Source: Corbicula japonica | Lineage: Eukaryota; Mollusca; Bivalvia; Venerida; Cyrenidae | NCBI GenBank assembly: GCA_038501625.1 | Contig: JAZAYU010000199.1 | Span: forward strand, 248,001-312,000 | DNA: 64,000 bases | Reading direction: 5' to 3' | Shown here: in pieces, positions 544 to 64,000 of the stretch | Layout of the letters: each line of letters begins with the position of its first letter | Position numbering within the stretch: the first letter of the stretch is position 1 | The notes under the pieces: generated by a model | Told to the model about the DNA's origin: nothing | What the model saw: the letters and a program-made list of their open reading frames with translations, nothing else | The model's database searches: none | Translations under genes and position numbers: made by a program

Positions 544-3500
544 CTGAAAAAATACATTTGTATTTATAAAACAATTATATAGAGCATTTTGTGCTCTGGT
601 AAACTCAGGCTTAAACGTCATGTAATACCAATTCTAACACTTAAGATCAGGGTTGAAGGTTATAAAACTGAGTTTGGAAACCAGTCTCAAATCTCAAGCA
701 CCAGTCGCCATTTCAGCCAATCAGACGCTTGAGATTTGAGACTGGTTTCCAATCTCAGCTTTATAACCTTCAGCCCAGTTTAGTTCGCGTGTCTGAAAAG
801 AGGTTTTCTAGTTTATTTAATAACTGCCGAAGCATTCCGTTTTCCAATACAGTATGTAACCAATAACTAGATCACCATGTGACAGACTAGGGTAAAAGTA
901 TCCATTCCATTTATGAATATTAGTTACTGTAATATAATAAAACGCGCTTGTATCTGCTTTAATATCATTTGCGATCACGTGACCGTTTACTTATCCATAA
1001 GTAAGGTCATACAACAGATAAAAACAGGTTACCTTCTGGCTAAATTTATAAGTATGACAGAGGTAAAACAACAAGATTATAAAAGTGTCATATTCATCAT
1101 GAAAAAACGATGGAGTGCCCAGCGTGAAAAATATCAATATCGAGTAACTGCATATAATGTGTAACGTAACGGACAAATTAATATTATATATTATTAAATT
1201 ACATTGTTGCATGACTAGAACAGCATTGTTCGAATTGCAACTCTGAATAAGTTCATTCTAAGCCCCCGATTCTCCAAATTGGCCAGTGTTAAATTTCTAA
1301 TAAAAATTAAAAGCGGCAGGCATTTACGATTTATTAGAACATTTTGGACGTCATTATAGGAGAAACGTTAAGCCTTATTGGACTTGCATTTCTCAGGGAA
1401 AGGTTCTTGTTCCATGCTTTACTACGAAGGGTGAAGAAGTTTTACACGTTGCAATCTTTAAACTGGACCTAAGATCAAAGACTTTAACCAGTCTCGGACT
1501 CTAGCTTTTGATTGGTTCACTTGGAGAGTGAATTCTGTTTAACCGCCTAGATTTTAATGAAGAATTGTATTTATCTAAGGATATACTAAACTAATGTTTG
1601 CAAGCTCCGTTTAGTCCGATTTAGTTCAAAGAAAAACCATTTGCATGATAATTCTCATGAAAGAAATTAAGTTTTTCTTGTTTTTTTTAATCCTAAAATT
1701 ATTTTGACAAATTGGCACTAATGATTGTAGACCAGCATATACTTATTTCAGGTAGGAGTTGTTTTGGTATGTTGTCAATGAATTTCAATGTTATCATGAA
1801 AATGGTTGTTCTTTTGTGTTTGGTATGTGCTTGGTATGTTTGTATGTTCTTTTGTTTTGATGAGTACATGTATATATGTGTTCATCTGCAATTGTTAAGG
1901 GCAAAAAACTGTATTGTTTATGCCTGTAACGGGTACCGATCGTCTGGATTACAATATATTAGAATTTTCCTTTTGCCTTCTTTGGCTATTTGATTGGAGA
2001 CAAATGTTTGATTAAATGATTTAGATGTGTGAAATCAAATCTCATATAATTATCCTGAAATACACAAAATCAGCTTCACTTCAGCCGGTTGTCATGTAAT
2101 TTATGAAAATCAACTCTATGGTCATCAATTAGCTGGTAACTATATGGTCAGTACCTTTGATCATCAAAAAGTATCACTTATTAGTTTATACTTATAGACT
2201 AAATCAATAGAGATCATCAGCAACACAAAACAAGTAGTCTGTTTTTGACCGTAATACCTATCATACGACTGACAATAATGTGACCATCACATACGGTCAT
2301 CAAATATACTGCAAGTCAGTCTCCTATTGCAGTACTACTATATTCAGCTCAACATAGGCTGACAGTGTTATCATCAACAAGTCACACCATATACAAACTA
2401 TTGTATATACTTGTTAAACCAATGTTACTCACCTAATGGAGTTCCAACTACGACCCGGTTATAATCCTATCTATTATAAGTAGTCCGACCCTCTAGAAAG
2501 CAATGCGTTCTCAGAGAGGACTGATGGAGCTAGTTGACATGTAGAGGATATACGCATCAAAGTCCTAGTTAGTTCTCCAATGAGTATGTCTCTCTTGGAT
2601 CTAGCTATATACCCAAGCCTGATCACATGACTCACCTGGATTGGCTGAATGATTCTGTCTCTGAAAACGCTTATTACTTACTGTTGCTTGATGAGCCTAT
2701 AGATGGGGTGTTGTTAAACGCTTTTTAAAACTATGAACAACATAACAAAATAGAGTAATTAACCTGCACGCTTTTCCTAGCGTATTTAAACCAAATACTT
2801 TGAAAGTAACCAATCAAATAGCAACATTATATAATAATTAAATGATAAAAAAACACAGAATGGTTTAACTTCTTTGAAATTAAGACTTCTGACATCGTTT
2901 TAATTGACCAGAACTTCTTGTTCTTACTTAGTATCTAACCAGTCTTCTATATTAAGACATCACTAACGTTGCAAATGGCGAAAACTGGCTAAAATTTCAA
3001 AAATGAATTTTGCGAAATACCCATTGCCACCTAGAGTTTAGTGAAGTAATGTATTACGAGTATTCTAAGAATAAAGTAATTGTTTGCAAGCTCAGTTACG
3101 TCTAATTCATGTTGAAGTTCAAGATTTTATTCGGCATGTGACAAAGGTACCTCCCCTTATTTATGGTACGCCATTTCATTAAGTAAGACGAATTGAGTCT
3201 AGCATCGATATAAAAGTCCACGAGTTTTACATGTTAAAGCGGAATTGTGTGACATGTTCTACACAGTAAACTTGTAATTAGTACTAATTAATTAACAAAA
3301 CAGCCAGCACCGTAAGATTTTATAATAACTTCGTTGTCAATTATATTTTGGGGGAAGTTTTTCTTTGACGATAAAACGAATGACAGAAATCTTCACTATC
3401 TTTCATTAAAACCGATGAAACCCAATCTATTGTAAATGTAATTGGTGAACTATTTTTTCGAGTTAAAGTAAAAGTAGTTGAAATTAGTCCCAGCCTATAA

Positions 3501-6228
3501 CAGAGGTGAATGTAATAAGCCGATAGTGTAAGAGAGTGGTCGAAAATCTTCGACGAATTCGAAAACTCTGATAATTGAAAATGAAAGTAAACGGGGTAAA
3601 ATGTATAAATTTTTATAAACGAATCGGCTAAGAGTCCGTTGTGTGAGAACCCCTAACCAGAAATACATCTGTCAAGTATGATTGTGTTTCCTGCAATAGT
3701 TTATGATTTGAGGATTTTTTTTAATAATCTTCGTATAACTCGGAAAATCCAATGCTAAAATTGTATTCTGTGCTCAAATCAAATGTGTACTTACTCGATC
3801 CCGGAAGTTGCCGCACGGTGACGCCGTTTTCTATGTTTCCAGAACTCAACATCCTTTGCACTGGTGTAGGTTTAGGGAGATCTAAAATAACCAAATCCCA
3901 ATGTTGTAAAAGTGAGAATAGAAACCAGTCTCAAATCTCAAGCATCTGGTCGCCATTTCAGCCAATCAGATGCTGGAGATTTTGGACTGGTTTCCAATCT
4001 CAGTTTTACAACCTAGTGACCAGTAATACAGAAACCCATGATTTTAGGCAATGGTTCATCCAATAATGTTGACCTTGATACACGAAGCAATGCGTGAAAA
4101 TGTGCTTTCAACTATTTAATAAACCCTCATACGTAACATTATCAACTCTACTGGCATTCCAAAAGAAAATGTGCACTTTGTAGTCGGTGATTTTTTCATT
4201 AACTGCTTTTCTTAATGCCTAAATATTGGGTATCAAAATTGAGATTAGATCATTTAAATTCTATAGTCAAACTATCGTGAAAAACACTTTCTTTTGAAAT
4301 GGAGTATATATTTGCCTCAATTGTAGGAAGTTACTGTTGTGCTGTCGTTCAAATTTGTTGTTACCGTGCTGAGCAATTATTTTCTAATATTTTAATACTA
4401 ATAACTGATAGTGCTAAAATCTGCTATGTCGGTTATTTATAAAACAAACAGCAGGCTTACCATAATTACGTAAAATCTTCTAAAAGGGAAGTCAGTTTTA
4501 TTATTTATATGAAAATTTCACTCTCTATTTTCGAATTTTCGAACTCGTGTTCTTCTTCAAGAAAAATACAGAAATTTTGTTATTTAAGTTTCATCCATTT
4601 TGAGAACGTATTATTATTGTTTGTATTTTTCTTGAAGAAGAACACGAGTTCGAAAATTCGAAAATAAAGAGTGGATATTTTATAAACAACATGTTGTATC
4701 GGTTATTTATAAAACAAACAACATGCTTACCAATGTTTAATCTTTGAAATGACGTCATAAATTTGAGCAGACGACAATATTTATTATGCATTTCGCGGTA
4801 AAAATACCATTTTATTGTCAAAATGAGTACCAAAATCACATTTTAGTTATAAGAAATTGATTTATAGGTAAAAGTTTTTCCTAAACTAAACTAAAATATA
4901 ACTAAAATGACCGAATGTAGATTTTCCCGTGACGTGCCCCAAATAAAACAGCAAAACAAAAAAACAATATGCTTACCAATGCTTAAACCGGTAGTTGGAT
5001 CTTCAAACGGTCGCAGTTCAGACATTATCATCTGCATATTTCCTAATGACGGGTCGTTTTCCGTCCCTGGATTGAAATTAATAAAATTCAATGGTACCGG
5101 GATTCCCATATTTGTTTCTTGATTTGAACGTTGAGATATCGGCTCTGCAATAGTGTTTCTTGTCCGAACTAGCCGGAAGTCGGGTTGGGAACCAGTAGTT
5201 CCGCGTCTTCGTGGGAGCAACGCAGGAGGTTCGCCGGCAATGATTTGATTTATACCTTGTGGTCCAACAATTTCGTTTAACACTGGTTGCGCTATTAAAG
5301 TAGCTAGGACCTCATCACTGATCCCGAAACTAAGATCCCTCGTGACGTCATTACGCCTTTGAGGGGGTTCTCCCGTCTGTCTGTTTACGGCAGCGTCTCT
5401 CGCAGCCTCTTGTCTCTGTCGCAGTAAGTTACGTATAGCCAAAATGGCTCGTGCCCGAGAATCTGTGCGGACGTCTCTTTCTACTGGCATAAGTTCGGGC
5501 CCACTTATCCTTCCAATATCTCTCAATCTCCCGATGAGGTTCGGATGTACACAAGAACATTCACACGGAATTGTGCACGTTCGTCCGGGACAACCTCCGT
5601 CGCATCTGTAAGCGTCTCGGGTGTCCCGATTTTCGGGCCAGGAAAAGCATCTAACAGACCTTGGCGATTCGCACTGCGTCATAACGGAACCGGAAACACC
5701 GGTTACTACGGTTGAATTAGGAAGCGTTCTGAATGCCGTCTGCTGACTGGTTGAATCAGGACCCGACGGTATACCGGCGGAATCAGACATCGTTCTGACT
5801 CCCCTCTGTTGACCGGCTCGTATCCGCGACACTGCTTCTAGTCTGGGATCCAGTCTCGCATTTGAAATATTCGCCTGAAAGCTCCTCGCTTGAGGTATAA
5901 CACCGCCTGTCCGTTGAAGATTTCGGATCTGTAAAACACGTACCGGATTCATCCGGCTATTTTCAACATTTTGTCTTCCGGTTCCGACTGAGACACGTGA
6001 ATTATCCGGAAATCGTTGTACGTTCCGGGTATTTTGTAGTAAATTTCCAATATTTGTTGGTGTTCCGGTGTCTCGTAATGAAGTTATCGAGGTCTGGCGA
6101 GAAGGCACGATGGTCTGCTGGAGTCCTGGACCAGTAAAGCCTCGAGTCTGGGCTGCAGAATCACTTATTAAACTTGTTATAATCAGCAATTTAAAAACTA
6201 CGGAATTCCATTTGCAGTTCTCACCCAT
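56..6228 (-). CDS. Predicted secreted protein with two eight-cysteine clusters, three exons, 608 aa
   Basis: Join of 6228-4977, 3881-3795 and 543-56. The lengths 1252+87+488 make 609 codons including a TAG stop. Both introns (1095 and 3251 bp) start GTAAGY, end TTTTAG or TTTTTTCAG, and are phase 1, so the frame is continuous. Residues 1-26 look like a signal peptide: Lys6, a hydrophobic stretch at 10-21, then a small-residue site SAA before Gln27. Cluster 1 has Cys186, 194, 209, 213, 218, 222, 224, 226. Cluster 2 has Cys547, 556, 572, 576, 581, 586, 588, 590. Both follow C-x7/8-C-x14/15-C-x3-C-x4-C-x3/4-C-x-C-x-C. The rest is low-complexity, rich in Arg, Asn, Gln, Ser and Thr, with no membrane segment. 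An extracellular, perhaps matrix, protein is inferred. The family is not recognised and no function is claimed. Further exons inside the introns cannot be excluded. Confidence 0.72.
544..3794 (-). other. Intron 2 of the secreted-protein gene
   Basis: It runs from GTAAGT to TTTTTTCAG on the minus strand. It holds a hairpin element at 650-776 and otherwise AT-rich sequence. Short ORFs at 913-1164 and 1712-1993 have no start context, domain or repeat partner and are not called as genes. I see no further exon with good splice signals, but a short one could be missed in 3.2 kb. Confidence 0.6.
650..776. mobile_element. Hairpin MITE, family H (copy in intron 2)
   Basis: The arms GGTTATAAAACTGAG and CTCAGCTTTATAACC lie at the two ends. 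Inside them GAAACCAGTCTCAAATCTCAAG is repeated inverted (left arm near 678-699). The left arm is shortened around the centre, where CCAGTCGCCATTTCAGCC is kept. It belongs to a dispersed family with members at 3902, 45080, 48615, 49810 and 51816. There is no ORF. It sits in an intron, so it would be transcribed with the gene and could fold. Confidence 0.75.
3795..3881 (-). CDS. Exon 2: 87-nt symmetrical phase-1 linker exon
   Basis: This small exon is open in only one frame, the one required by exon 1. The last G of exon 1 plus its first two bases AT give an Asp codon. It encodes residues 419-446, a Pro/Ser/Gly/Asn-rich linker without cysteine, and its final A joins exon 3 to make Asn447. The acceptor is TTATTTTAG at 3890-3882 and the donor is GTAAGT from 3794. 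Both ends are phase 1, so it could be skipped without shifting the frame. Confidence 0.65.
3902..4014. mobile_element. Hairpin MITE, family H (copy in intron 1)
   Basis: Starts GTTGTAAAAGTGAG and ends CTCAGTTTTACAAC. The internal arms GAAACCAGTCTCAAATCTC and its inverted partner flank CGCCATTTCAGCCAATCAG. It begins about 20 bp upstream of the exon 2 acceptor, on the minus strand. Confidence 0.7.
4430..4985 (-). repeat. Three related copies of the exon 1 donor region
   Basis: The real donor (ATTG/GTAAGC at 4980-4971) has look-alikes at about 4732-4722 (ATTG/GTAAGC) and 4466-4456 (TATG/GTAAGC). All are preceded or followed by similar AAAACAAACA-rich sequence on the plus strand. The two inner copies share a longer stretch, TCGGTTATTTATAAAACAAA. 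They look like partial tandem duplications of the exon-intron boundary. No clear acceptor was seen that would make the inner ones true exons. Confidence 0.5.
4519..4673. repeat. 51-bp inverted repeat in intron 1
   Basis: Arms 4519-4569 and 4623-4673 are inverted copies with one mismatch in 51 bases, separated by 53 bp. The arm core reads TTCGAACTCGTGTTCTTC. No other copy was noticed in the window. It could be a young fold-back insertion or a local inverted duplication. Confidence 0.85.
4977..6228 (-). CDS. Exon 1: signal peptide, linker and first cysteine cluster
   Basis: The ATG at 6228-6226 is preferred over an in-frame ATG at 6342 because a signal peptide follows it directly. The upstream 38 codons look like untranslated leader and contain a donor-like GTAAGT at 6246-6241. 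The exon encodes residues 1-417, with cluster 1 at 186-226, and then a Pro/Arg/Asn-rich stretch including an amphipathic Arg/Ala/Leu segment near 256-280. The exon ends ATTG with donor GTAAGC from 4976. The reading frame runs another 28 codons into the intron before a stop at 4891, which is read-through rather than coding. Confidence 0.75.
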
Positions 6229-7461
6229 TTTAACTAAATCACTTACGCAGAATCTTAATCCATACCAGAATTCTAATAACAAGTAAAGAACCTTCAGTCG
6301 GAAGACAGAAACACGATTATTCCAATTTCCAATTGAAATCAAGCCAGCTCTTCACCAGTTGTGCACATTGTTCAAAAGACCTCGACTGTGTGTACGTTAT
6401 CTTTGTTAAAACTATAACCATCTGAAGGTTTTACATCATCTTTCATAGTTATGTCATCCACAAATTTCAAAATAAACAACATGTATCAAAATAATGACCT
6501 TTTGTTGTTGGGAAAGCAGATTGGGAAAGCAGATTTTGACACCACGCATGTGGAAAGTAAAAATGTCATTCACGTAACGACCGCTGATTATGGAGTTAAT
6601 GAGAACGTATTATTGAATGCATATAAAATTCAAGTTATAACGAAATAAGACCATAACAATATCATGACAAATGACCATTTAACGACTTTCCCTGGACAAC
6701 TGTGTCCAGCAGACCGAATGTTTAGATGATGTTATGACATGTAAATGGCACGAATAAATGCCTAATATTTGCATAATTAATAACGGTATTGACATTTGTG
6801 TTAATTAATCGTGCGTAATCACCAGCGAGTTTGGGTAATAAAAATTTAATTGGTAGGTTGTATCCAAACTTTAATTGTTTCGCCGGAAAACAGCCTTGAA
6901 TATCGTATGCGCTGAATTAATGAATATAATTCATCTTCTTGTAAGAAAAATGGGACAAACGTATTAAAAACCTGCGTTCAAAAATATTTACAAAACTCCA
7001 AATGGAAATATATCTAAAATATATTATTTATTTTACTTTCAATTGACCGTTTTGTTAAACGTCTAGTCGCACTGACCAAGTTTTCTTTCATGGTAAGGGC
7101 AAACTTTTCTGAATTTGATTTCGCACAATAACAAAGTTCATATAATATTCTGCGCTGTTGTGTAAGATGTTTGGTTCGTTATGTTATGTCCTCTTTCCTC
7201 AGAAATATGAGAAATAGCATTTCATTTATTCGTGTTTCGGTCTATTTGTTAAAACAAGTTTTTTTAACAACGGCGCAATATAAGGTTTTGAATTATGTTC
7301 GCCTAAATTACTGCGCCATACTGCCGACATGAGAATTACATTCAATCTAAAACAAATGTCTATTATTTAAGAAAGTACTTATTTTAAATATGCAAGTAAA
7401 AGGAAGTGCACGACTATGCGCGGTGATAGAGAGGGCGAGACATAAAAGTTGCAGCGCTTAA

Positions 7462-7476
7462 CCCCCCCCCCCCCCC
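7462..7476. repeat. Homopolymer C15
   Basis: Fifteen consecutive C residues on the plus strand. It may form i-motif or G-quadruplex structure on the opposite strand, and its length may be uncertain in sequencing. Confidence 0.9.
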
Positions 7477-7539
7477 ACTCTCCTTCCTGAACATTTTACT
7501 CTATATATATTTAAATACGCCGGTACGGGTATTATCGCG

Positions 7540-7720
7540 TGAGCGACCAGTGTAGCACCAGTAAGCTGGGAAATCCTTATCGTCTGATACAGATATACAC
7601 TGGTCGCATTCAGAAATCACCTACTGAACCTAAAAGCAAACAGTGTAGATCCTAATCAGACAGCACTGTACGAATGTGCCAGCAGATCTGGATCGACTTT
7701 GTCCGCCCATGGGATTACAG
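7540..7720. mobile_element. Decayed piggyBac-like MITE, family P
   Basis: Contains CGACCAGTGTAG, GATACAGATATACACTGG, AGTGTAGATCCTAATCAGACAG and AGATCTGGATCGAC in alternating orientation, as in the clear copy at 23514-23730. The terminal TTAA/CCCTTTCC motifs are lost. Confidence 0.5.
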
Positions 7721-8299
7721 CTATATCTCATTGAGTAAAGGGTTAACTGCAAGGGGCATGTTGGTTTACTTGTTGTACTTAAGTCAAAAACTTGCATTCC
7801 ATTTAAAAGAAAAACGGTATTTGCAGCTTTAATTATCATAACAAGGGACAAAACCATGTAAAATACAAGTTTTCAAGTAGTGTTTGAACCTTTATATCAA
7901 ACCTTGGTTGAAGCAGAATCGGTAATTTCAATTACATATGTATGCTTTTTTTCTTTCCAAAAGAAAACAATTATCATATTTTGCTGGAATATTAAAAAAA
8001 TATCAAATTAAATATCGTCAGAATAAATATTATTTGTTCGCCACCAAATTCCTTTTATGATGCGATATACGCCAACGTTTCCATAAGGGATAGGGGTAAA
8101 GGTAAACGTAATAACGCAAAAACGAAGTCGGTGACACCCCTTTTTTGTCAAACATTTCCAAAATAATATTTACAAACGAATTATGCAAAAAATCAAAATT
8201 TTATTCATCATTTTTTTTGCAATTCCGAAACAAGCGACGAAATTTTAGTAAAACTACGTCATTTTTCAGGTCAAAACGGCGTTTCTCGGCGACGCCATG

Positions 8300-9415
8300 C
8301 GTAAATCTTAGGTGCAAACAAAGACCACCTCTGCTAAAGAAACCTGTTTTAAAGGTTGCCCTTAAAGAAAGACTACCTCTGCTAAAGACCAACTGTAAAC
8401 AAAGACCAAGTGAGTTATTTACACATGCAAACAAGGACCACCTCTGCTAAAGACTATCTGTAAAACAAAGACCATAAGTGCAAAAGACCACCTGAAAACA
8501 AAGACAACCAGTGCTCAAGACCATCTGTAAACAAAGTCCAAGTAACTTAAAACCACCTGCAAACAAAGACCACCTGTGCTAAAGACTACCCCTAAACAAG
8601 ACAACCAGTGCTAAAGACCTCCTGTAAACACAGACAACCTGTGCTTATTACCACCTGTTAAGACAAGACAACCTATGCTAATTAACACCTGTGCTAAATA
8701 CCACCTGAAAACAATGACAACCAGTGCTAAAGAATACTGTAGACAACCCGTTCTAAAGAAACCTGTAAACACAGACAACCTGTTCTAATTACCATTTGTA
8801 AACAATGACAACCAGTTCTAAAGAATACTGTAAAGACAACCCGTGCTAAAGACAACCTGAAAACAATGACAGCCTATGCTAAAGAATACCTGTAAACAAA
8901 GACAACCCGTGCTTAAGACAACCTGTTAACAAAGACAGCCTATGCTAAAGACTGCCTGTAAACAAAGACAACCTGTGCAAAAGACTGCCTGTAAACAAAG
9001 ACAACCTATGCTAAAGACTGCCTGTAAACAAAGACAACCTGTGCTAAAGAATACCTGTAAACAATGACAACAAGTGCTAAAGACAACCTGTAAACAAAGA
9101 CAGCCTATGCTAACAACTGCCTATAATTAATTTCAGCTAAGGATCAAATTTAAACAAAGACCACCTGAGCTTAAACCAACTGCAGACAAAACGGACCAAT
9201 TCTGCAAAAGACACCCTGTTCTTAAGACTGCCCATAAATAAGGACCATCTCTGCTAAGACCACCTGTAAACAAAAACCACCTGAGCTACAACCACCTGAA
9301 GACAAATACAACCTCTGCTAAAACACCTGCAAACAAAGACGACCAGTGCTACAGACCACCATTTAACTAAGACAACCTCTGTTTAAGACCACCTGTAAAC
9401 AAAGAAACTCGACCT
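8300..9415. repeat. Degenerate ~33-bp minisatellite, copy A
   Basis: Roughly thirty imperfect units built on TAAACAAAGACAACCTGTGC followed by TAAAGACTGCCTG. Units vary through substitutions and small indels. The most regular part is about 8880-9060. The array and its right flank recur at 29445-30430, so it is part of the large duplication. Confidence 0.85.
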
Positions 9416-9570: not shown

Positions 9571-11017
9571 GGGGTCCTATCCAGAGTTACCTCCCATTTA
9601 GAGTGGCTTCCCATGCTGATTGGTAGTTCCGGTTTAGAAGCGGTAATAAAGCGTAGCGTTAAAAGTGTAGATAAAAAGTTTCAAAGTGCTTTTGAAGTTA
9701 AAATGCATTGTCAAATTAACAAAAAAAGTGAAACAGGCATATAAAGAATAACCATCAACTTTGTAAAGTGATTTTAAGTTAATAACTAAATGCATCTTTA
9801 GCTATTTACGTAACTGCACGTATCCTTTATGAAAAATTATTTATTGTCTGGCATCGAAATTTTAGCTTTTTGAAACGTTCACTTAAGTATTCAGCCAATC
9901 ACCGTTAAGTCATGCAAACAATGCTTATTAAGAAAAGGGCCTGGTGTTTTATGATCATGTTACGTAATCTAATTAGCAAGACTGGGTTTTACCAGCTGGA
10001 GGTGTGATAAAGGCCTTTTGAAGTTTAGTTGTAGATTTGTAAGAGGTCGAAAACGTTACTTGTTGGGGGTAAAAGTGTTGTTTTAGGAAAGTGACTTTAG
10101 ATTAAATATTCTAATTAATTGTCACACTGTTGTTTGAGACCCGAGACATTAATTATTTGATATTTGCAACTTAAAGCGCTCCGATCTGAATTTAATAAAA
10201 TAGCATTCGGGAAAGTTTTACCCAAACATATATAAACTTTATTCAATTAATTAAAATTGATTGTAAAACTAAATGAAATAATAAAATAAAGAGAAAGACG
10301 TGAAAACATTACGAAACCATGTTTGAATATATTCTAAATTGTATAAGAATAAGAAAGAAACTTTTGGAACTTTTTAGCAGTATATTGAAAAATACGTTAA
10401 TACGAACATGGCACAAATCTATAAACCGAATGGTGTGAATTTAATTTGTAGGAAAAGGTTCAGTTATTAAAATAATCTTAGACTATTAAATTCCTGGCCA
10501 AAAATGTTGCATGGACATGAAAGAACATGTATAAAAGTGAACGAGCGTTTTATTGGCGGAAGTCAAACTTTATTTTACATCATGTGTTATAAATTGTACT
10601 AGTCTACCTTTTTTTTCGTTAACGGTTTCTTACTTTTCTTTCCCTCAAATCTGCCATTTTTGAGCATAAGCAATGCGTAATTTTACTCTATTACCGAAGG
10701 GGTCGAACATAACGATGTTAAACACATACCTCGCAAACGTATAAAAATGGGTAAAAGAGAAAATTTAAATATTATGCGCTGCACTATAAAACTATCTATT
10801 TTTTCCATTCAATTATAATAATCAAACGTTTTTATGCATTATGCTGATCTCTAACCAACTAGACCCTTTGAAAACGTATTTGAAAGGACCACGGATGACT
10901 ACTGCATGTCTGTTTTAATGTCAATTTCAGACCGGAACTACCCAGTGACAGGTGTGCGTTACAAAGGGAGGTAACTTAAGACAGAATATTGAGATAACTG
11001 TATATCGGTAGGACCCC
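9571..11017. mobile_element. Non-autonomous DNA transposon, 1447 bp, with AT target duplication
   Basis: Starts GGGGTCCTA and ends TAGGACCCC. Subterminal inverted matches include AGTTACCTCCC and GGTAGTTCCGGT near both ends. It is flanked by AT on both sides (9569-9570, 11018-11019). The paralogous site near 30606 reads CAGAATTGGTTTTG without the element, which fixes the ends to the base. There is no ORF of note, so it depends on a transposase elsewhere. The superfamily is not assigned. Confidence 0.85.
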
Positions 11018-52720: not shown

Positions 52721-53820
52721 ACTCCAGCTGCTTGGAAGATGGGGAACACATAAAATATTAGCATGAAAGGGGTTTTATTTGGAAATATTTTGCAGGGTTT
52801 CAAATCATGTGTAGAATTTCAGTCAAATTTGCATTGGAAAATCAGGACTGGGGTGACTTTAAATGCCTGTATAGGTTAAATGATTAGTTCTGTAGAACAG
52901 TTGGTTGTGGTTTGTAAAAAGCTAGACCCCTGCAACACATAAAGTACAACAACAAAATTTTAGCTGTGCAAAGTTATTATTTACAGTCAATGTAAGCTTG
53001 CACGGGGTCGTCCAAGACTCAGGCGAACAAGATCATAACGTTTGTTTGCCACAACGCAATACTTTGCACACTTTTTTATATTTAATTCAGAACATTTCGT
53101 TTGTTTACATCAAACTTGGAAACGTTCCGGATCACAATTTTAAACTAGGATTCTATTATTTCTGTTTTTATTACTATACATATTCATATAGCCTAAATAG
53201 CGCTTTCCAGTGACTGCCTTGTGCAGATCTTGTCAGTGGGTTCCTAACCATTTCTGGGCCGGATATAAGGTGTTTTTGCTCGAATAAGAACTCGACCACA
53301 TGCTAGGGTGGATTAAAAGATATCAGATCAAAAATAGAGTGTTCCCAGCAATTCAATGCTAAACAGAACCTTAATTAATTCGTTGCGCGTTAACTCTGAA
53401 AAATATCGTTTTTATCTCCCCTTTATTGCAAAGGATCGAACAAACCGCTGTCCGAGCTCGCCATCGATCGGGCGAACACGAGTACAGCGTTTGTTTGCCT
53501 CACTGCAATACAGAGGCTGTTGTTTCGGGCTTGGAACTTTAGCAATTTGTCAGGGTATTACTATATTCATATAGCACAAATAGCACTTTCCAGTGACTGT
53601 CAAACAGATCGAGTCACCAGGTTCCGAGGAAGCGCTTTAGCCTTTTTGTGCCTGAAATTCGATGCATGTTCGCTTGAATTCGATGCATTTGCACGACTCC
53701 GGGAGCATGACCATTAACCAGCGTGAATTTAAAGTAACCAGACCGGAAAATGGGCTTTATCCATAACTTGAAAACATAAGTAAACATAAATTAAATCTCT
53801 TCGAACGCGTTTTTCAAATG

Positions 53821-53895
53821 GACTGGTTGGCCGAGCGGTTACGATCACTGTCTTGCAAACATTTCGACCCGGGTTCCTGGCGGGTTCGATTCCTA
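53821..53895 (+). ncRNA. tRNA-like Pol III promoter unit, copy 1
   Basis: A box TGGCCGAGCGGTTA and B box GGGTTCGATTCC are about 45 bp apart, the spacing of a class II (Leu/Ser-type) tRNA with a long variable arm. The anticodon-like stem TGT/ACA carries the loop CTTGCAA. The acceptor stem does not pair, so it is tRNA-derived, not a tRNA. A T9 run about 35 bp downstream (53928-53936) could end Pol III transcription. Confidence 0.55.
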
Positions 53896-54681
53896 AAGAG
53901 ACTAATTTTCTTATTTCTTCAAACGTGTTTTTTTTTAATTTAATTCAGAACATTTCGTTTGTTTACATCAAACTTGGAATAGTTCCGGATCACAATTTTA
54001 AACAAGGATTCTATTATTTCTGTTTTTATTACTATACATATTCATATAGCCTAAATAGCACTTTCCAGTGACTGCCTTGTGCAGATCTTGTCAGTGGGTT
54101 CCTAACCATTTCTGGGCCGGATATAAGGTGCCTTTGCTCGAATAAGAACTCGACCACATGCTAGGGTGGATTAAAAGACATCAGATCAAAAATAGAGTTT
54201 TCCCAGCAATTCAATGCTAAACAGAACCTTAATAAATTCGTTGCGCGTTTACTCTGAAAAATATCGTTTTTATCTCCCCTTTATTGCAAAGGATCGAACA
54301 AACCGCTGTCCGAGCTCGCCATCGATCGGGCGAACACGAGCACAGCGTTTGTTTGCCTCACTGCAATACAGAGGCTGTTGTTTCGGGCTTGGAACTTTAG
54401 CAATTTTTCAGGGTTTTATTACTATATTCATATAGCACAAATAGCACTTTCCAGTGACTGTCAAACAGATCGAGTCACCAGGTTCCGAGGAAGCGCTTTA
54501 GTCTTTTTGTGCCTGAAATTCGATGCATGTTCGCTGGAATTCGATGCATTTGCACGACTCCGGGAGCCTGACCATTAACCAGCGTGAATTTAAAATAACC
54601 AGACCGGAAAATGGGCTTTATCCATAACTTGAAAACATAAGTAAACATAAATTAAATCTCTTCGAACATGTTTTTCAAATG

Positions 54682-54756
54682 GACTGGTTGGCCGAGCGGT
54701 TACGATCACTGTCTTGCAAACATTTCGACCCGGGTTCCTGGCGGGTTCGATTCTTC
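54682..54756 (+). ncRNA. tRNA-like unit, copy 2
   Basis: Boxes are identical to copy 1. The sequence after the B box changes to TTCTTCAACAG. A T9 run follows near 54789. Confidence 0.5.
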
Positions 54757-55543
54757 AACAGACTAATTTTCTTATATCTTCAAACGTGTTTTTTTTTAAA
54801 TTTAATTCAGAACATTTCGTTTGTTTACATTAAACTTGGAATAGTTCCGGATCACAATTTTAAACAAGGATTCTATTATTTCTGTTTTTATTACTATACA
54901 TATTCATATAGCCTAAATAGCGCTTTCCAGTGACTGCCTTTTGCAGATCTTGTCAGTGGGTTCCTAACCATTTCTGGGCCGGATATAAGGTGCCTTTGCT
55001 CGAATAAGAACTCGACCACATGCTAGGGTGGATTAAAAGACATCAGATCAAAAATAGAGTTTTCCCAGCAATTCAATGCTAAACAGAACCTTAATTAATT
55101 CGTTGCGCGTTAACTCTGAAAAATATCGTTTTTATCTCCCCTTTATTGCAAAGGATCGAACAAACCGCTGTCCGAGCTCGCCATCGATCGGGCGAACACG
55201 AGCACAGCGTTTGTTTGCCTCACTGCAATACAGAGGCTGTTGTTTCGGGCTTGGAACTTTAGCAATTTTTCAGGGTTTTATTACTATATTCATATAGCAC
55301 AAATAGCACTTTCCAGTGACTGTCAAACAGATCGAGTCACCAGGTTCCGAGGAAGCGCTTTAGACTTTTTGTGCCTGAAATTCGATGCATGTTCGCTGGA
55401 ATTCGATGCATTTGCACGACTCCGGGAGCCTGACCATTAACCAGCGTGAATTTAAAGTAACCAGACCGGAAAATGGGCTTTATCCATAACTTGAAAACAT
55501 AAGTAAACATAAATTAAATCTCTTCGAACGCGTTTTTCAAATG

Positions 55544-55618
55544 GACTGGTTGGCCGAGCGGTTACGATCACTGTCTTGCAAACATATCGACCCGCGTTCC
55601 TGGCGGGTTCGATTCTTC
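55544..55618 (+). ncRNA. tRNA-like unit, copy 3
   Basis: Boxes are intact. Changes lie outside them: CATATCGACCCGCG replaces CATTTCGACCCGGG. A T9 run follows near 55651. Confidence 0.5.
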
Positions 55619-56403
55619 AAGAGACTAATTTTCTTATTTCTTCAAACGTGTTTTTTTTTATTTAATTCAGAACATTTCGTTTGTTTACATCAAACTTGGA
55701 ATAGTTCCGGATCACAATTTTAAACAAGGATTCTATTATTTCTGTTTTTATTACTATACATATTCATATAGCCTAAATAGCGCTTTCCAGTGACTGCCTT
55801 GTGCAGATCTTGTCAGTGGGTTCCTAACCATTTCTGGGCCGGATATAAGGTGCCTTTGCTCGAATAAGAACTCGACCACATGCTAGGGTGGATTAAAAGA
55901 CATCAGATCAAAAATAGAGTTTTCCCAGCAATTCAATGCTAAACAGAACCTTAATTAATTCGTTGCGCGTTAACTCTGAAAAATATCGTTTTTATCTCCC
56001 CTTTATTGCAAAGGATCGAACAAACCGCTGTCCGAGCTCGCCATCGATCGGGCGAACACGAGCACAGCGTTTGTTTGCCTCACTGCAATACAGAGGCTGT
56101 TGTTTCGGGCTTGGAACTTTAGCAATTTTTCAGGGTTTTATTACTATATTCATATAGCACAAATAGCACTTTCCAGTGACTGTCAAACAGATCGAGTCAC
56201 CAGGTTCCGAGGAAGCGCTTTAGCCTTTTTGTGCCTGAAATTCGATGCATGTTCGCTGGAATTCGATGCATTTGCACGACTCCGGGAGCCTGACCATTAA
56301 CCAGCGTGAATTTAAAGTAACCAGACCGGAAAATGGGCTTTATCCATAACTTGGAAACATAAGTTAACATAAATTAAATCTCTTCGAACGCGTTTTTCAA
56401 ATG

Positions 56404-56478
56404 GACTGGTTGGCCGAGCGGTTACGATCACTGTCTTGCAAACATTTCGACCCGGGTTCCTGGCGGGTTCGATTCCTA
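56404..56478 (+). ncRNA. tRNA-like unit, copy 4
   Basis: Identical to copy 1 through both boxes, including the CCTAAAGAGA tail; a T9 run follows near 56511. Confidence 0.5.
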
Positions 56479-57265
56479 AAGAGACTAATTTTCTTATTTC
56501 TTCAAACGTGTTTTTTTTTAAAATTTAACTCAGAACATTTCGTTTGTTTACATCAAACTTGGAATAGTTCCGGATCACAATTTTAAACAAGGATTCTATT
56601 ATTTCTGTTTGTATTACTATACATATTCATATAGCCTAAATAGCGCTTTCCAGTGACTGCCTTGTGCAGATCTTGTCAGTGGGTTCCTAACCATTTCTGG
56701 GCCGGATATAAGGTGCCTTTGCTCGAATAAGAACTCGACCACATGCTAGGGTGGATTAAAAGATATCATATCAAAAATAGAGTTTTCCCAGCAATTCAAT
56801 GCTAAACAGAACCTTAATTAATTCGTTGCGCGTTAACTCTGAAAAATATCGTTTTTATCTCCCCTTTATTGCAAAGGATCGAACAAACCGCTGTCCGAGC
56901 TCGCCATCGATCGGGCGAACACGAGCACAGCGTTTGTTTGCCTCACTGCAATACAGAGGCTGTTGTTTCGGGCTTGGAACTTTAGCAATTTTTCAGGGTT
57001 TTATTACTATATTCATATAGCACAAATAGCACTTTCCAGTGACTGTCAAACAGATCGATTCACCAGGTTCCGAGGAAGCGCTTTAGCCTTTTTGTGCCTG
57101 AAATTCGATGCATGTTCGCTGGAATTCGATGCATTTGCACGATTCCGGGAGCCTGACCATTAACCAGCGTGAATTTAAAGTAACCAGACCGGAAAATGGG
57201 CTTTATCCATAACTTGAAAACATAAGTAAACATAAATTAAATCTCTTCGAACGCGTTTTTCAAAT

Positions 57266-57341
57266 GAACTGGTTGGCCGAGCGGTTACGATCACTGTCTT
57301 GCAAACATTTCGACCCGGGGTTCCGGCGGGTTCGATTCCTA
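57266..57341 (+). ncRNA. tRNA-like unit, copy 5
   Basis: Boxes are intact. It starts GAACTGG instead of GACTGG and has an extra G in CGACCCGGGGTTCCGG in the variable arm. The T-run is T7. Confidence 0.5.
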
Positions 57342-58126
57342 AAGAGACTAATTTTCTTATTTCTTCAAACGTGTTTTTTTATATTTAAATCAGAACATTT
57401 CGTTTGTTTACATCAAACTTGGAATAGTTCCGGATCACAATTTTAAACAAGGATTCTATTATTTCTGTTTTTATTACTATACATATTCATATAGCCTAAA
57501 TAGCGCTTTCCAGTGACTGCCTTGTGCAGATATTTTCAGTGGGTTCCTAACCATTTCTGGGCCGGATATAAGGTGCCTTTGCTCGAATAAGAACTCGACC
57601 ACATGCTAGGGTGGATTAAAAGATATCAGATCAAAAATAGAGTTTTCCCAGCAATTCAATGCTAAACAGAACCTTAATTAATTCGTTGCGCGTTAACTCT
57701 GAAAAATATCGTTTTTATCTCCCCTTTATTGCAAAGGATCGAACAAACCGCTGTCCGAGCTCGCCATCGATCGGGCGAACACGAGCACAGCGTTTGTTTG
57801 CCTCACTGCAATACAGCGGCTGTTGTTTCGGGCTTGGAACTTTAGCAATTTTTCAGGGTTTTATTACTATATTCATATAGCACAAATAGCACTTTCCAGT
57901 GACTGTCAAACAGATCGATTCCCCAGGTTCCGAGGAAGCGCTTTAGCCTTTTTGTGCCTGAAATTCGATGCATGTTCGCTGGAATTCGATGCATTTGCAC
58001 GACTCCGGGAGCCTGACCATTAACCAGCGTGAATTTAAAGTAACCAGACCGGAAAATGGGCTTTATCCATAACTTGAAAACATAAGTAAACATAAATTAA
58101 ATCTCTTCGACCGCGTGTTTCAAATG

Positions 58127-58201
58127 GACTGGTTGGCCGAGCGGTTACGATCACTGTCTTGCAAACATTTCGACCCGGGTTCCGGGCGGGTTCGATTCCT
58201 A
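58127..58201 (+). ncRNA. tRNA-like unit, copy 6
   Basis: Boxes are intact. The variable arm reads GGGTTCCGGGCGGG and the tail CCTATTGAG, a variant shared with copy 7. A T9 run follows near 58234. Confidence 0.5.
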
Positions 58202-58986
58202 TTGAGACTAATTTTCTTATTTCTTCAAACGTGTTTTTTTTTATTTAAATCAGAACATTTCGTTTGTTTACATCAAACTTGGAATAGTTCCGGATCACAA
58301 TTTTAAACAAGGATTCTATTATTTCTGTTTTTATTACTATACATATTCATATAGCCTAAATAGCGCTTTCCAGTGACTGCCTTGTGCAGATCTTGTCAGT
58401 GGGTTCCTAACCATTTCTGGGCCGGATATAAGGTGCCTTTGCTCGAATAAGAACTCGACCACATGCTAGGGTGGATTAAAAGATATCAGATCAAAAATAG
58501 AGTTTTCCCAGCAATCCAATGCTAAACAGAACCTTAATTTATTCGTTGCGCGTTAACTCTGAAAAATATCGTTTTTATCTCCCCTTTATTGCAAAGGATC
58601 GAACAAACCGCTGTCCGAGCTCGCCATCGATCGGGCGAACACGAGCACTGCGTTTGTTTGCCTCACTGCAATACAGCGGCTGTTGTTTCGGGCTTGGAAC
58701 TTTAGCAATTTTTCAGGGTTTTATTACTATATTCATATAGCACAAATAGCACTTTCCAGTGACTGTCAAACTGATCGATTCACCAGGTTCCGAGGAAGCG
58801 CTTCAGCCTTTTTGTGCCTGAAATTCGATGCATGTTCGCTGGAATTCGATGCATTTGCACGACTCCGGGAGCCTGACCATTAACCAGCGTGAATTTAAAG
58901 TAACCAGACCGGAAAATGGGCTTTATCCATAACTTGAAAACATAAGTAAACATAAATTAAATCTCTTCGAACGCGTCTTTCAAATG

Positions 58987-59061
58987 GACTGGTTGGATGA
59001 GCGGTTACGATCACTGTCTTGCAAACATTTCGACCCGGGTTCCGGGCGGGTTCGATTCCTA
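58987..59061 (+). ncRNA. tRNA-like unit, copy 7, altered A box
   Basis: The A box is changed from TGGCCGAGCGG to TGGATGAGCGG, which should weaken it. The B box is intact and the T-run is T7. Confidence 0.45.
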
Positions 59062-59844
59062 TTGAGACTAATTTTCTTATTTCTTCAAACGTGTTTTTTT
59101 AAAATTTAATTCAGAACATTTCGTTTGTTTACATCAAACTTGGAATAGTTCCGGATCACAATTTTAAACAAGGATTCTATTATTTCTGTTTTTATTAATA
59201 TACATATTCATATAGCCTAAATAGCGCTTTCCAGTTACTGCCTTGTGCAGATCTTGTCAGTGGGTTCCTAACCATTTCTGGGCCGGATATCAGTTGCCTT
59301 TGCTCGAATAAGAACTCGACCACATGCTAGGGTGGATTAAAAGATATCAGATCAAAAATAGTTTTCCCAGCAATCCAATGCTAAACAGAACCTTAATTAA
59401 TTCGTTGCGCGTTAACTCTGAAAAATATCGTTTTTATCTCCCCTTTATTGCAAAGGATCGAACAAACCGCTGTCCGAGCTCGCCATCGATCGGGCGAACA
59501 CGAGCACAGCGTTTGTTTGCCTCACTGCAAAACAGCGGCTGTTGTTTCGGGCTTGGAACTTAGGCAATTTTTCAGGGTTTCATGACTATATTCATATAGC
59601 ACAAATAGCACTTTCCAGTGACTGTCAAACAGATCGATTCACCAGGTTCCGAGGAAGCGCTTTAGCCTTTCTGTGCCTGAAATTCGATGCATGTTCGCTG
59701 GAATTCGATGCATTTGCACGACTCCGGGAGCCTGACCATTAACCAGCGTGGATTTAAAGTAACCAGACCGGAAAATGGGCGTTATCCATAACTTGAAAAC
59801 ATAAGTAAACATAAATTAAATCTCTTCCAACGCGTTTGCAAATG

Positions 59845-59919
59845 GACTGGTTGTCCGAGCGGTTACGATCACTGTCTTGCAAACATTTCGACCCGGGTTC
59901 CGAGCGGGTTCGATTCCTC
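59845..59919 (+). ncRNA. tRNA-like unit, copy 8, altered A box and T-run
   Basis: The A box reads TGTCCGAGCGG. The downstream T-run is shortened and broken (GGCTCTTTTTA). The B box is intact. Confidence 0.45.
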
Positions 59920-60702
59920 CTGAGAATAATTTTCTTATTTGTTCAAACGTGGCTCTTTTTATTTAATTCAGAACATTTCGTTTGTTTACATCAAACTTGG
60001 AATAGTTCCGGATCACAATTTTAAAAAGGATTCTATTATTTCTGTTTTTATTACTATTCATATTCATATAGCCTAAATAGCGCGTTCCAGTGACTGCCTT
60101 GTGCAGATCTTGTCAGTGGGTTCCTAACCATTTCTGGGCCGGATATAAGTTGCCTTTGCTCGAATAAGGACTCGACCACATGCTAGGGTGGATTAAAAGA
60201 TATCAGATCAAAAATAGAGTTTTCCCAGCAATTCAATGCTAAACAGAACCTTAATTAATTCGTTGCGCGTTAACTCTGAAAAATATCGTTTTTATCTCCC
60301 CTTTATTGCAAAGGATCGAACAAACCGCTGTCCGAGCTCGCCATCGATCGGGCGAACACGAGCACAGCGTTTGTTTGCCTCACTGCAAAACAGCGGCTGT
60401 TGTTTCGGGCTTGGAACTTTAGCAATTTTTCAGGGTTTCATGACTATATTCATATAGCACAAATAGCACTTTCCAGTGACTGTCAAACAGATCGATTCAC
60501 CAGGTTCCGAGGAAGCGCTTTAGCCTTTCTGTGCCTGAAATTCGATGCATGTTCGCTGGAATTCGATGCATTTGCACGACGCCGGGAGCCTGACCATTAA
60601 CCAGCGTGAATTTAAAGTAACCAGACCGGAAAATGGGCTTTATCCATAACTTAAAAACATAAGTAAACTTAAATTAAATCTCTTCGAACGCGTTTTCAAA
60701 TG

Positions 60703-60777
60703 GACTGGTTGGCCGAGCGGTTACGATCACTGTCTTTCAAACATTTCGACCCGGGTTCTGGGCGGGGTCGATTCCTA
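60703..60777 (+). ncRNA. tRNA-like unit, copy 9, altered B box
   Basis: The B box is GGGGTCGATTCC, having lost the first T of GGTTCGA. The loop reads CTTTCAA instead of CTTGCAA. The T-run remains. Confidence 0.45.
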
Positions 60778-61564
60778 GTGAGACTAATTTTCTTATTTCT
60801 TCAAAAGTGTTTTTTTTAAAATTTATATCAGAACATTTCGTTTGTTTTCATCAAACTTTGAATAGTTCCGGATCACAATTTCAAACAAGGATTCTATTAT
60901 TTCTGTTTTTATTACTATACATATTCATATAGCCTAAATAGCGCTTTCCAGTGACTGCCTTGTGAGGATCTTGTCAGTGGGTTCCTAACCATTTCTGGGC
61001 CGGATATAAGGTGCCTTTGCTCGAATAAGGACTCGACCACATGCTAGGGTGGATTAAAAGATATCAGATCAAAAATAGAGTTTTCCCAGCAATTCAATGC
61101 TAAACAGAACCTTAATTTATTCGTTGCGCGTTAACTCTGAAAAATATCGTTTTTATCTCCCCTTTATTGCAATGGATCGAACAAACCGCTGTCCGAGCTC
61201 GCCATCGATCGGGCGAACACGAGCACAGCGTTTGTTTGCCTCACTGCAATACAGCGGCTGTTGTTTCGGGCTTGGAACTTTAGCAATTTTTGAGGGTTTT
61301 ATTACTATATTCATATAGCACAAATAGCACTTTCCAGTGACTGTCAAACAGATCGATTCACCAGGTTCCAAGGAAGCGCTTTAGCATTTTTGTGCCTGAA
61401 ATTCGATGCATGTTCGCTGGAATTCGATGCATTTGCACGATGCCGGAAGCCTGACCATAAACCAGCGTGAATTTAAAGTAACCAGACCGGTAAATGGGCT
61501 TTATCCATAACTTGAAAACATAAGTAAACATATATTAAATCTCTTCGAGCGCGTTTTTCAAATG

Positions 61565-61639
61565 GACTGGTTGGCCGAGCGGTTACGATCACTGTCTTTC
61601 AAACATTTCGACCCGGGTTCCGGGCGGGTTCGATTCCTA
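61565..61639 (+). ncRNA. tRNA-like unit, copy 10
   Basis: Both boxes are intact. The loop variant CTTTCAA is shared with copy 9. The eleventh unit ends before reaching this part. Confidence 0.5.
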
Positions 61640-62310
61640 CTGAGAATAATTTTCTTATTTCTTCAAACGTGTTTTTTTTAAATTTTATTCAGAACATTTC
61701 GTTTGTTTACATCAAACTTGGAATAGTTCCGGATTAGAATTTTAAACAACGATTCTATTCTTTCTGTTTTTATTAATATACATATTCATATAGCCTAAAT
61801 AGCGCTTTCCAGTGACTGCCTTGTGCAGATCTTGTCAGTGGGTTCCTAACCATTTCTGGGCCGGATATAAGTTGCCTTTGCTCGAATAAGAACTCGACCA
61901 CATGCTAGGGTGGATTAAAAGATATCAGATCAAAAATAGAGTTTTCCCAGCAATTCAATGCTAAACAGAACCTTAATTAATTCGTTGCGCGTTAACTCTG
62001 AAAAATATCGTTTTTATCTCCCCTTTATTGCAAAGGATCGAACAAACCGCTGTCCGAGCTCGCCATCGATCGGGCGAACACGAGCACAGCGTTTGTTTGC
62101 CTCACTGCAATACAGCGGCTGTTGTTTTGGGCTTGGAACTTTAGCAATTTTTCAGGGTTTCATTACTATATTCATATAGCACAAATAGCACTTTCCAGTG
62201 ACTGTCAAACCGATCGATTGACCAGGTTCCGAGGAAGCGCTTTAGCCTTTTTGTGCCTGAAATTCGATGCATGTTCGCTGAAATTCGATGCATTTCCTCG
62301 ATTCCGGGAC

Positions 62311-64000
62311 TCACTGATATAGCTAGGTTGTACTATAGTCGTTTTTCTTCGCGCCTCCTTTCATGAAGAGCTAACAAGAGATTTAATAACAAATCTGACT
62401 CGTGCAAGAATTATTAAGATTTACTGAAGCTAAAATGATAACCTGTCGATGTAATCAGAAAGCATTAACTAGAACCATTACTTGTTAATGATTTGTTTGA
62501 CAACTCTGCGTACAGATGTTAGGCATCTGTTAACAATTAATGATCGCGTACAGTTGCAACTATCCGTACAGTCTTATCATTTATAGTGTCATAAATAAAG
62601 TATCATTTTCTCGTTGCTACGTTCTTGAAACTCAGGTCATTTTCTCCCATACCAACAAAAATATGTTCCAAAATCTATTTACATAAAGAAATTTGAGCCC
62701 AAAACGTCCCGTTTTGTTCAATGTTTTGCTCTTATTTTCACCTATCGAGTTGGAAACGATGATGGATTATAACAATACTAACCCTTCCTTTAAGTCTATA
62801 TGATCACAGCAGGACTAACAATTAACGTTGTACTTACCACAGAAATAATTCTTCCTAATGCACATTAAATTTGGTGTTATTTACCAATAAATAATTCGAT
62901 GTCGCAGGTTTTTCTGTAAGCAACTATGTGATCATCGGCGTAGAGATCAGCAACTTCCGTTTTGAGAAACTGTACGCTCACACAATTTGATTGAGATAAG
63001 AAGAAATCGATGTTTGCCAAAACAAAACAAAACCATTAATTGATGACTTCATCGAACAAAGTTTGCATTTGCCGTTTATTAGGTCATAAACATTCAGTCT
63101 TTCAAGTGAACGAAATGATAATCTACCAATTTCGGGTTAATTAAATACTAAAAATATAGGGTCGCCTCGTTTGGATGACTGTCGTCCATGATTATGTGTA
63201 CATGGAGGACCTTCTCTATGTGTAACTAAACGATTTTCCAATGCAACTTTATGCAATGAAGACTTTACAGTATGCTGTTAATTTTACAACATGTTATACA
63301 TGAAATGAAGGAGAATTTTTTTCCGAATACGGCAGTATTTCTTGATTAAAAAAAACATGAAGTGCTGTCTGAATATTTATTTATATATAGTGCGCTAACG
63401 TCGTTTTGGGCTTGTCCTAGCGTAACACGCGACTAAATGTTTTGTACGGGTAAATGCTGCAGTTTGTTTATAAATTGAACGAAGCCCACAAACTTTTAGC
63501 CATTGAATTTTACGTCACATCCCTTGATAACATCATCAACAGAATGTAATTCAAATTGTCGGAAGTCGCAATTCAGAATATTTTCTAAGAAGGAGTAATT
63601 TGTCCCATTTTCGTGCAATTTGACGGAGCTCACGTTTCAAACGATATTTAAATACACAAGGGAAACAGTTAAGTTGTGATTTACACATCAAGAAATTGTA
63701 ATTTTCCTCTTCTACGTTTCCATATAAAAATAAATTAAATGATCACATGACTTAAATTACAGTTTTAAAATATCTCTGTCTAGCAAAATTGTGAAAATCC
63801 ATAAAAATTGCGCTATTTCTAAAATTGACGTTTGTTCCTGTAGAAGTATGAAAAGTGGCGCTTAATAATATGAGAAACAAACCTATATTGATATTGTAAT
63901 TTTTTCGCTTTATCTTAACATATATACCTTGTGGTATATAGAGTTATAGTTAAAACGCTATGAATACAAATTCATGTCTAGCAATAATGTGAACTGTTCC
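62311..64000. other. Right flank of the satellite, no feature recognised
   Basis: AT-rich sequence with no ORF above 60 codons, no tandem repeat and no copy of the repeat families listed here. The junction with the satellite is abrupt at GATTCCGGGAC/TCACTGATATAGC. Confidence 0.5.

Follow-up and report, generated by a model that had tools for sequence, protein, structure and literature searches.

A low-copy tandem repeat of Corbicula japonica with a tRNA-Leu-like head and a putative RNA polymerase III promoter

An array of 861-bp units with tRNA-like heads

The window analyzed here, a 64,000-nucleotide stretch of the genome of the bivalve Corbicula japonica (C199, positions 248001-312000, in the 1.07-Gb assembly G000), carries a tandem array of an 861-bp unit, and every full unit contains a tRNA-like segment, its head, with the A and B boxes of an RNA polymerase III (Pol III) promoter and downstream T-runs. 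We hold with moderate confidence that these units represent a low-copy tandem family competent for Pol III transcription, with a tRNA-Leu-like head and, judged by its layout, of the same kind as the OAX repeat of Xenopus. Some other repeats in the window seem similar to bivalve repeats.

The initial annotation of the window had placed an array of an 861-bp unit at 53068-62310, with which our measurement closely agrees (Table 1): there are 10.7 copies with a consensus of 861 bp, single units measuring 858-863 bp. The ten in-phase units are 95.2-98.6% identical in pairwise comparison, those on the left being more alike than those on the right, and the unit has an inner duplication of about 51 bp (86%). 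The left edge of the array falls in the T-run, and a stray 44-bp unit fragment (82%) lies 9 bp away from it. Because this fragment is derived from another part of the unit, the edge is probably a rearrangement point. The array is homogenized, as expected of a satellite, but that label, applied initially, is generous for a family of which the stretches read, from a 1.07-Gb assembly, yielded 49 filtered heads.

All ten full heads have an A box and a B box at one position of the unit, with motif starts 54 bp apart. The A box, TGGCCGAGCGG, is exact in eight heads, and the remaining two have one and two mismatches; the B box, GGGTTCGATTCC, is exact in seven and has one mismatch in three, and its shorter core, GGTTCGATTC, is kept in nine. 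TTTT is found 12 bp past the B box in every head and could act as a first terminator. Distal T-runs stand at +34 after the B box, with lengths in unit order of 9, 9, 9, 9, 7, 9, 7, 5, 8 and 8, so that nine of the ten heads have T7-T9. The ten tRNA-like segments, the eight perfect A boxes and the T7-T9 runs about 35 bp downstream in most units, as first described, were all recovered, and the layout proposed then, in which each full unit has a Pol III promoter of tRNA type with T-runs behind it, is supported. The nine perfect B boxes of that description hold for the core, which was probably what had been counted, but not for the full box.

We also scanned for TRGYNNARNGG and GGTTCGANNCC at a distance of 30-80 bp, with one mismatch allowed in each. 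This loose scan of the window returned the ten heads and one weak pair, at 10699-10786 on the reverse strand. The chance expectation is 0.225 box pairs per 53 kb on both strands (first-order Markov sequence from the first 53 kb, mean of 40). Because of this low expectation, and since a single weak pair lies outside the array, ten box pairs in register are far beyond chance.

Table 1. Features of the array and its surroundings in the window.
Feature	Position	Strand	Details
Tandem array	53072..62309	+	10.7 x 861-bp unit
Isolated unit fragment	53019..53062	+	44 bp (82%), left of array edge
Unit 1 head	53828..53936	+	A box, B box, TTTT, T9
Unit 2 head	54689..54797	+	B box 1 mismatch, TTTT, T9
Unit 3 head	55551..55659	+	B box 1 mismatch, TTTT, T9
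Unit 4 head	56411..56519	+	TTTT, T9
Unit 5 head	57274..57380	+	TTTT, T7
Unit 6 head	58134..58242	+	TTTT, T9
Unit 7 head	58994..59100	+	A box 2 mismatches, TTTT, T7
Unit 8 head	59852..59960	+	A box 1 mismatch, TTTT, T5
Unit 9 head	60710..60817	+	B box 1 mismatch, TTTT, T8
Unit 10 head	61572..61679	+	TTTT, T8

Copies elsewhere in the genome

A whole-genome search for the unit, suggested in the initial annotation as a check, was made with 901 bases of the array as the query; the search, which skips common words, returned at least 96 matches on 26 other contigs, the contig of the window itself not being among them. In the stretches that were read, the unit forms arrays at C1362 and C135 and two kinds of array at C81, is present as broken copies at C39 and is otherwise dispersed. 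Taken together, the window and 16 other loci (with C81a and C81b as separate entries) yielded 49 heads with the same layout, a count that refers to the stretches read, in an assembly where arrays may be under-assembled, and that is in itself no proof of box retention, as the heads were selected by at most one mismatch per box. The distance from the start of the A box to the start of GGTTCGANNCC ranges from 41 to 62 bp over these heads. A run of at least six T lies within 75 bp of the B box at 46 of 52 sites with an A/B pair (45 of 49 without three non-family sites), the baseline being 6.2% of random 75-mers. The proximal T-run is T6-T8 in the C135 and C81 copies and T4 in the window array and C1362.

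The exact pattern TGGCCGAGNGGTTAN{25,50}GGGTTCGATTCC occurs six times in the genome, five times in the window array and once in C169, and not in the control. A looser head pattern occurs 270 times, again with no occurrence in the control, and the matches listed for it are largely other tRNA or tRNA-like sequences. Two patterns gave no relatives in viral contigs. Around the copies, the all-against-all matches listed consist of unit homology and common repeats, with no shared flank that would point to a larger mobile element.

Origin of the head

ARAGORN identified no tRNA gene in the window, and Rfam reported no family there at its gathering score and, at E<=10, nothing for tRNA within 53000-62500. 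Seven hits to HIV_GSL3 (E 3.9-6), far below the cut-off of that family, were taken as chance. The initial annotation had called for tRNA-structure scoring of each copy, and this revealed a cloverleaf in none of the 49 heads: at fixed positions, all 49 have at most four of seven acceptor pairs and at most four of five T-stem pairs, and a complete 3-bp D stem is possible in eight. With no ARAGORN or tRNA match and both stems incomplete in every head, a tRNA gene is ruled out. Because the D arms of the C81b, C204 and C1 copies closely resemble the D arms of tRNA-Leu-like genes listed for the same genome (tRNA names assigned by reading), tRNA-Leu is the likely source of the head.

A tRNA-derived head with A and B boxes is also what characterizes a short interspersed element (SINE). 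A SINE with a defined end was nevertheless rejected, as there is no common 3' end or tail, and the copies at 15 loci (three arrays and 12 dispersed) end abruptly at differing unit positions. The combination of a tandem unit with tRNA-like A and B boxes, which defines OAX-like repeats, is present.

Conservation of the promoter boxes

In order to compare the boxes with their surroundings, we counted mismatches between one majority sequence per locus and the window consensus, leaving out C1362, which is 97% identical. The head could be aligned in 12 of the 16 other loci, and these 12 are 72-90% identical to the unit. Mismatches amount to 8 of 132 positions in the A box and 10 of 144 in the B box (6-7%), but to 145 of 444 (33%) between the boxes, 152 of 728 in the 60 bp upstream and 82 of 408 in the 34 bp after the B box, with 15.7% for the whole unit over the 16 loci. 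The expectation that the boxes are better kept than adjacent bases is thus supported in diverged copies elsewhere in the genome. Only 3 of 861 placements along the unit, its own position included, equal or exceed this contrast between boxes and neighbors, and six loci (C81b, C17, C30, C169a, C169b and C213) have 0-1 mismatches in the 23 box positions where their other bases differ by 13-24%.

The RNA body and its fold, on the other hand, are not kept across the family. By its mismatches and its variable length, the segment between the boxes ranks with the most rapidly changing parts of the unit, and the folds of three predicted transcripts are no better than those of shuffled sequences (z +0.50 to +0.97). 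For these two reasons, if selection acts, its target would be the promoter.

Several observations weigh against a maintained promoter. The plain mismatch rate of the box pair is equalled by 67 of 861 placements, and other blocks of the unit are kept too; the B segment, when extended to 15 bases, is ordinary, 64% of windows being as low. At locus C1 the boxes differ at 5 of 23 positions and are kept no better than the rest of the locus (18%), and the distal T-run is about as variable as its surroundings (18 of 108). The loci are interrelated, so that mismatches are non-independent, and four of the 16 (C71, C99, C43 and C540) have no aligned head. Nine further degraded loci have an A/B pair in three cases (L060, L062 and L066) and none in six. 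Finally, in the window array itself the boxes are as variable as most of their neighbors and more variable than the unit average: variants per column amount to 0.27 for the A box, 0.25 for the B box and 0.30 between them, to 0.27 over the 60 bp upstream, 0.56 over the 34 bp that follow the B box, 0.89 for the T-run and 0.18 for the unit as a whole. Of windows of the same length, 83% are no more variable than the A box and 82% no more variable than the B box. Boxes no more conserved than neighboring bases were one half of the outcome that the initial annotation had named as contrary to its proposal, the other half being the absence of a short RNA starting near the A box; this is what the window array has, and the opposite is found in the diverged loci elsewhere. 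The within-array comparison is a weak test, and the array is young.

These observations could be accommodated if the tRNA-derived head were a silent relic in untranscribed units, with boxes left intact by chance block conservation or recent homogenization. The unremarkable boxes of the window array, the 67 equally kept placements genome-wide and the folding of the predicted transcripts all fit such a relic. We nevertheless consider it rather unlikely, since conservation falls sharply between and beside the boxes, a contrast matched at so few placements, and since the six loci named above have nearly intact boxes in otherwise diverged copies.

Retention of the boxes without the RNA body would likewise be expected if they bound TFIIIC without productive Pol III, organizing or insulating the array in the manner of extra-TFIIIC sites. 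Such sites typically need the B box alone, the T-runs found after 46 of the 52 sites fit transcription better, and the boxes are kept in dispersed single copies as well, all of which makes a TFIIIC platform improbable. That each unit of the regular arrays has its promoter, spacing and T-runs in fixed form is what one would expect if the units were genes for a functional small RNA, arranged in tandem like 5S rRNA clusters; given that the segment between the boxes changes fast in sequence (33%) and length (41-62 bp from A to B), that the RNA folds no better than shuffles and that no Rfam family is matched at the gathering score, we regard such genes as very unlikely.

Edges, single units and circular DNA

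No homology beyond the edges of the copies was detected at p<=0.02 for any of 15 left and 15 right edges, the lowest value being p 0.045 at the right edge of L020. Three of the 12 dispersed loci (L017-L028) consist of one unit opened at different points. At C99 the unit ends are exactly adjacent, and most of the head is absent; C1 is a single opened unit with 3 nt missing; at C213 the ends overlap by 6 nt according to BLAST, or fall short by about 10 nt when judged by eye. In the remaining nine loci the unit does not close (C30, for instance, lacks 61 nt, and C3 has about 70 nt in excess). A binomial estimate for three of 12 loci closing within 10 nt is 0.003, under a criterion set post hoc and with the reference unit picked per locus. 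Because these three loci are each one unit opened at a different point, spread as circles is suggested; insertion of unit-sized circles would fit the permuted single units without being proved by them.

When the unit is numbered from the first base after the distal T-run (P1), left edges lie at P850-P12, about 24 nt, in five of 15 loci (the window, L017, L019, L020 and L027; counted by hand). Conceivably, the unit might be a selfish Pol III-driven repeat that multiplies via monomeric circles, transcription and breakage at the terminator helping to release or reinsert the circles and the promoter being kept as a consequence. We give this little credence; if true, it would explain why the promoter is kept without the RNA, why three of 12 dispersed loci are permuted single units and why five of 15 left edges lie at the distal T-run.

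Neighboring and related sequences

On the reverse strand of C135 (L011, L012), two units share a 2.83-kb insert (97.4% identity between the two copies), which precedes the A box by about 45-48 bp (2480-5305 and 6284-9118 in oriented coordinates). It contains a tandem end repeat of 347 bp and disrupted reading frames that resemble reverse transcriptase. Pfam gave no family for two fragments of it, so that a reverse-transcriptase label was rejected and a Penelope-like identity is tentative. In 11 other loci among those read, pieces related to this insert adjoin unit copies or lie close to them; the window has none. To the right of the C1362 array, L009:9601-9682 is an 82-nt near-perfect hairpin, matching mir-6536 below the cut-off on both strands, which is perhaps a small inverted-repeat transposon; a sequence similar to it was also seen by eye beside L016 and L026.

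Two tRNA-like sequences lie near the C39 unit copies on the reverse strand, L015:6147-6218 barely at the Rfam tRNA cut-off (29.6 vs 29 bits) and L015:7421-7484 below it. A second dispersed tRNA-like family (TGGCCGAGTGGTTAGAGTCGCGGACCAGCGG...) occurs on C2, C4, C7, C9 and C13, with several pairs 0.9-2.1 kb apart. Tandem tRNA-like sequences, named by reading, are found at C4:5337590-5358808, where tRNA-Leu-like sequences are evenly spaced every 1588 or 1685 bp with one gap, and at C6:5707444-5733940, where tRNA-Ser-like sequences recur every 2403 bp. These evenly spaced arrays give a precedent in the same genome for regarding the present family as a decayed array of ordinary tRNA genes, which is already disfavored and hardly credible, as the 901-base query matched nothing on C4 or C6 among the matches listed (by a search that skips common words) and all 49 heads have incomplete acceptor and T stems.

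Proposed mechanism and implications

Our preferred reading, that of a Pol III-competent tandem family, can be stated as follows. The head would go back to the 5' portion of a tRNA, most probably tRNA-Leu. Its cloverleaf would have decayed, while the putative internal promoter (A and B boxes) persisted together with two T-runs downstream of it. Each unit is predicted to be able, probably, to bind TFIIIC and recruit Pol III, and the predicted product is an RNA of about 100-125 nt with weak structure that ends at TTTT or at T7-T9. Source copies were probably selected for the promoter and not for the RNA body. Pieces of arrays as well as single units may have spread, circular DNA being perhaps the route for some of them, and arrays would grow by unequal exchange. 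The OAX repeat, to which we compare the family, is transcribed by Pol III.

All descriptions found of tandem repeats that contain a tRNA-like Pol III segment concern amphibians, and the present family comes from another animal group; the family itself was not found in the literature searched, which covers few subscription papers. As it comprises both arrays and diverged single copies, its sequences indicate what is kept, namely the promoter boxes and not the RNA. If the units are transcribed, they would form a natural promoter series whose box spacing varies from 41 to 62 bp, and one could then test why Pol III promoters are found in some tandem repeats, a long-standing question.

Comparison with known systems

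Tandem repeats that contain a tRNA-like part are the subject of passages in PMC10702118, where OAX of Xenopus, PolIII/TAN of newt, Rana/polIII and Hy/polIII are named and their origin from SINEs is doubted, and the tabulated data of PMC9659126 list Xenopus satellite 1 and Hy/Pol III as tRNA-related. PolIII/TAN (Hirt) of Cynops, Rana/polIII and Hy/polIII of Hydromantes resemble the present family in being tandem repeats with a tRNA-related segment, but have units of about 200-360 nt as opposed to 861 bp here (same passages of PMC10702118). TAN is reported there to be capable of in vitro transcription and, according to a cited title, comes from tRNA-Glu, whereas the head here is tRNA-Leu-like. 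Hy/polIII is said in the same passages to be without a B box, whereas both boxes are present here.

SINE-derived satellites of reptiles, as outlined in PMC10702118, and the molluscan PcH-sat of limpet, derived from Nin-SINE according to an excerpt of PMC11121367, are similar in that tandem arrays contain SINE-type sequence. That excerpt describes the SINE segment of PcH-sat as being without boxes A and B, both of which are present here, and no parent SINE of the present family was found. Other mollusc satellites, in the account given in part of PMC5139131, share short arrays, single monomers and abrupt edges mostly at no fixed place; some of them belong to Helitrons, whereas the present copies have no shared flank among the matches listed.

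The closest likeness is to OAX, or satellite I, of Xenopus (Ackerman 1983; Lam and Carroll 1983, as cited in PMC10702118), likened here by its description in that source as a long tandem unit with a tRNA-derived central segment. The present family differs in being low-copy, in occurring also as permuted single units and in being known from sequence alone. Its assignment to the OAX-like tandem repeats rests on layout, by which the 861-bp unit would be a molluscan candidate for this kind of repeat.

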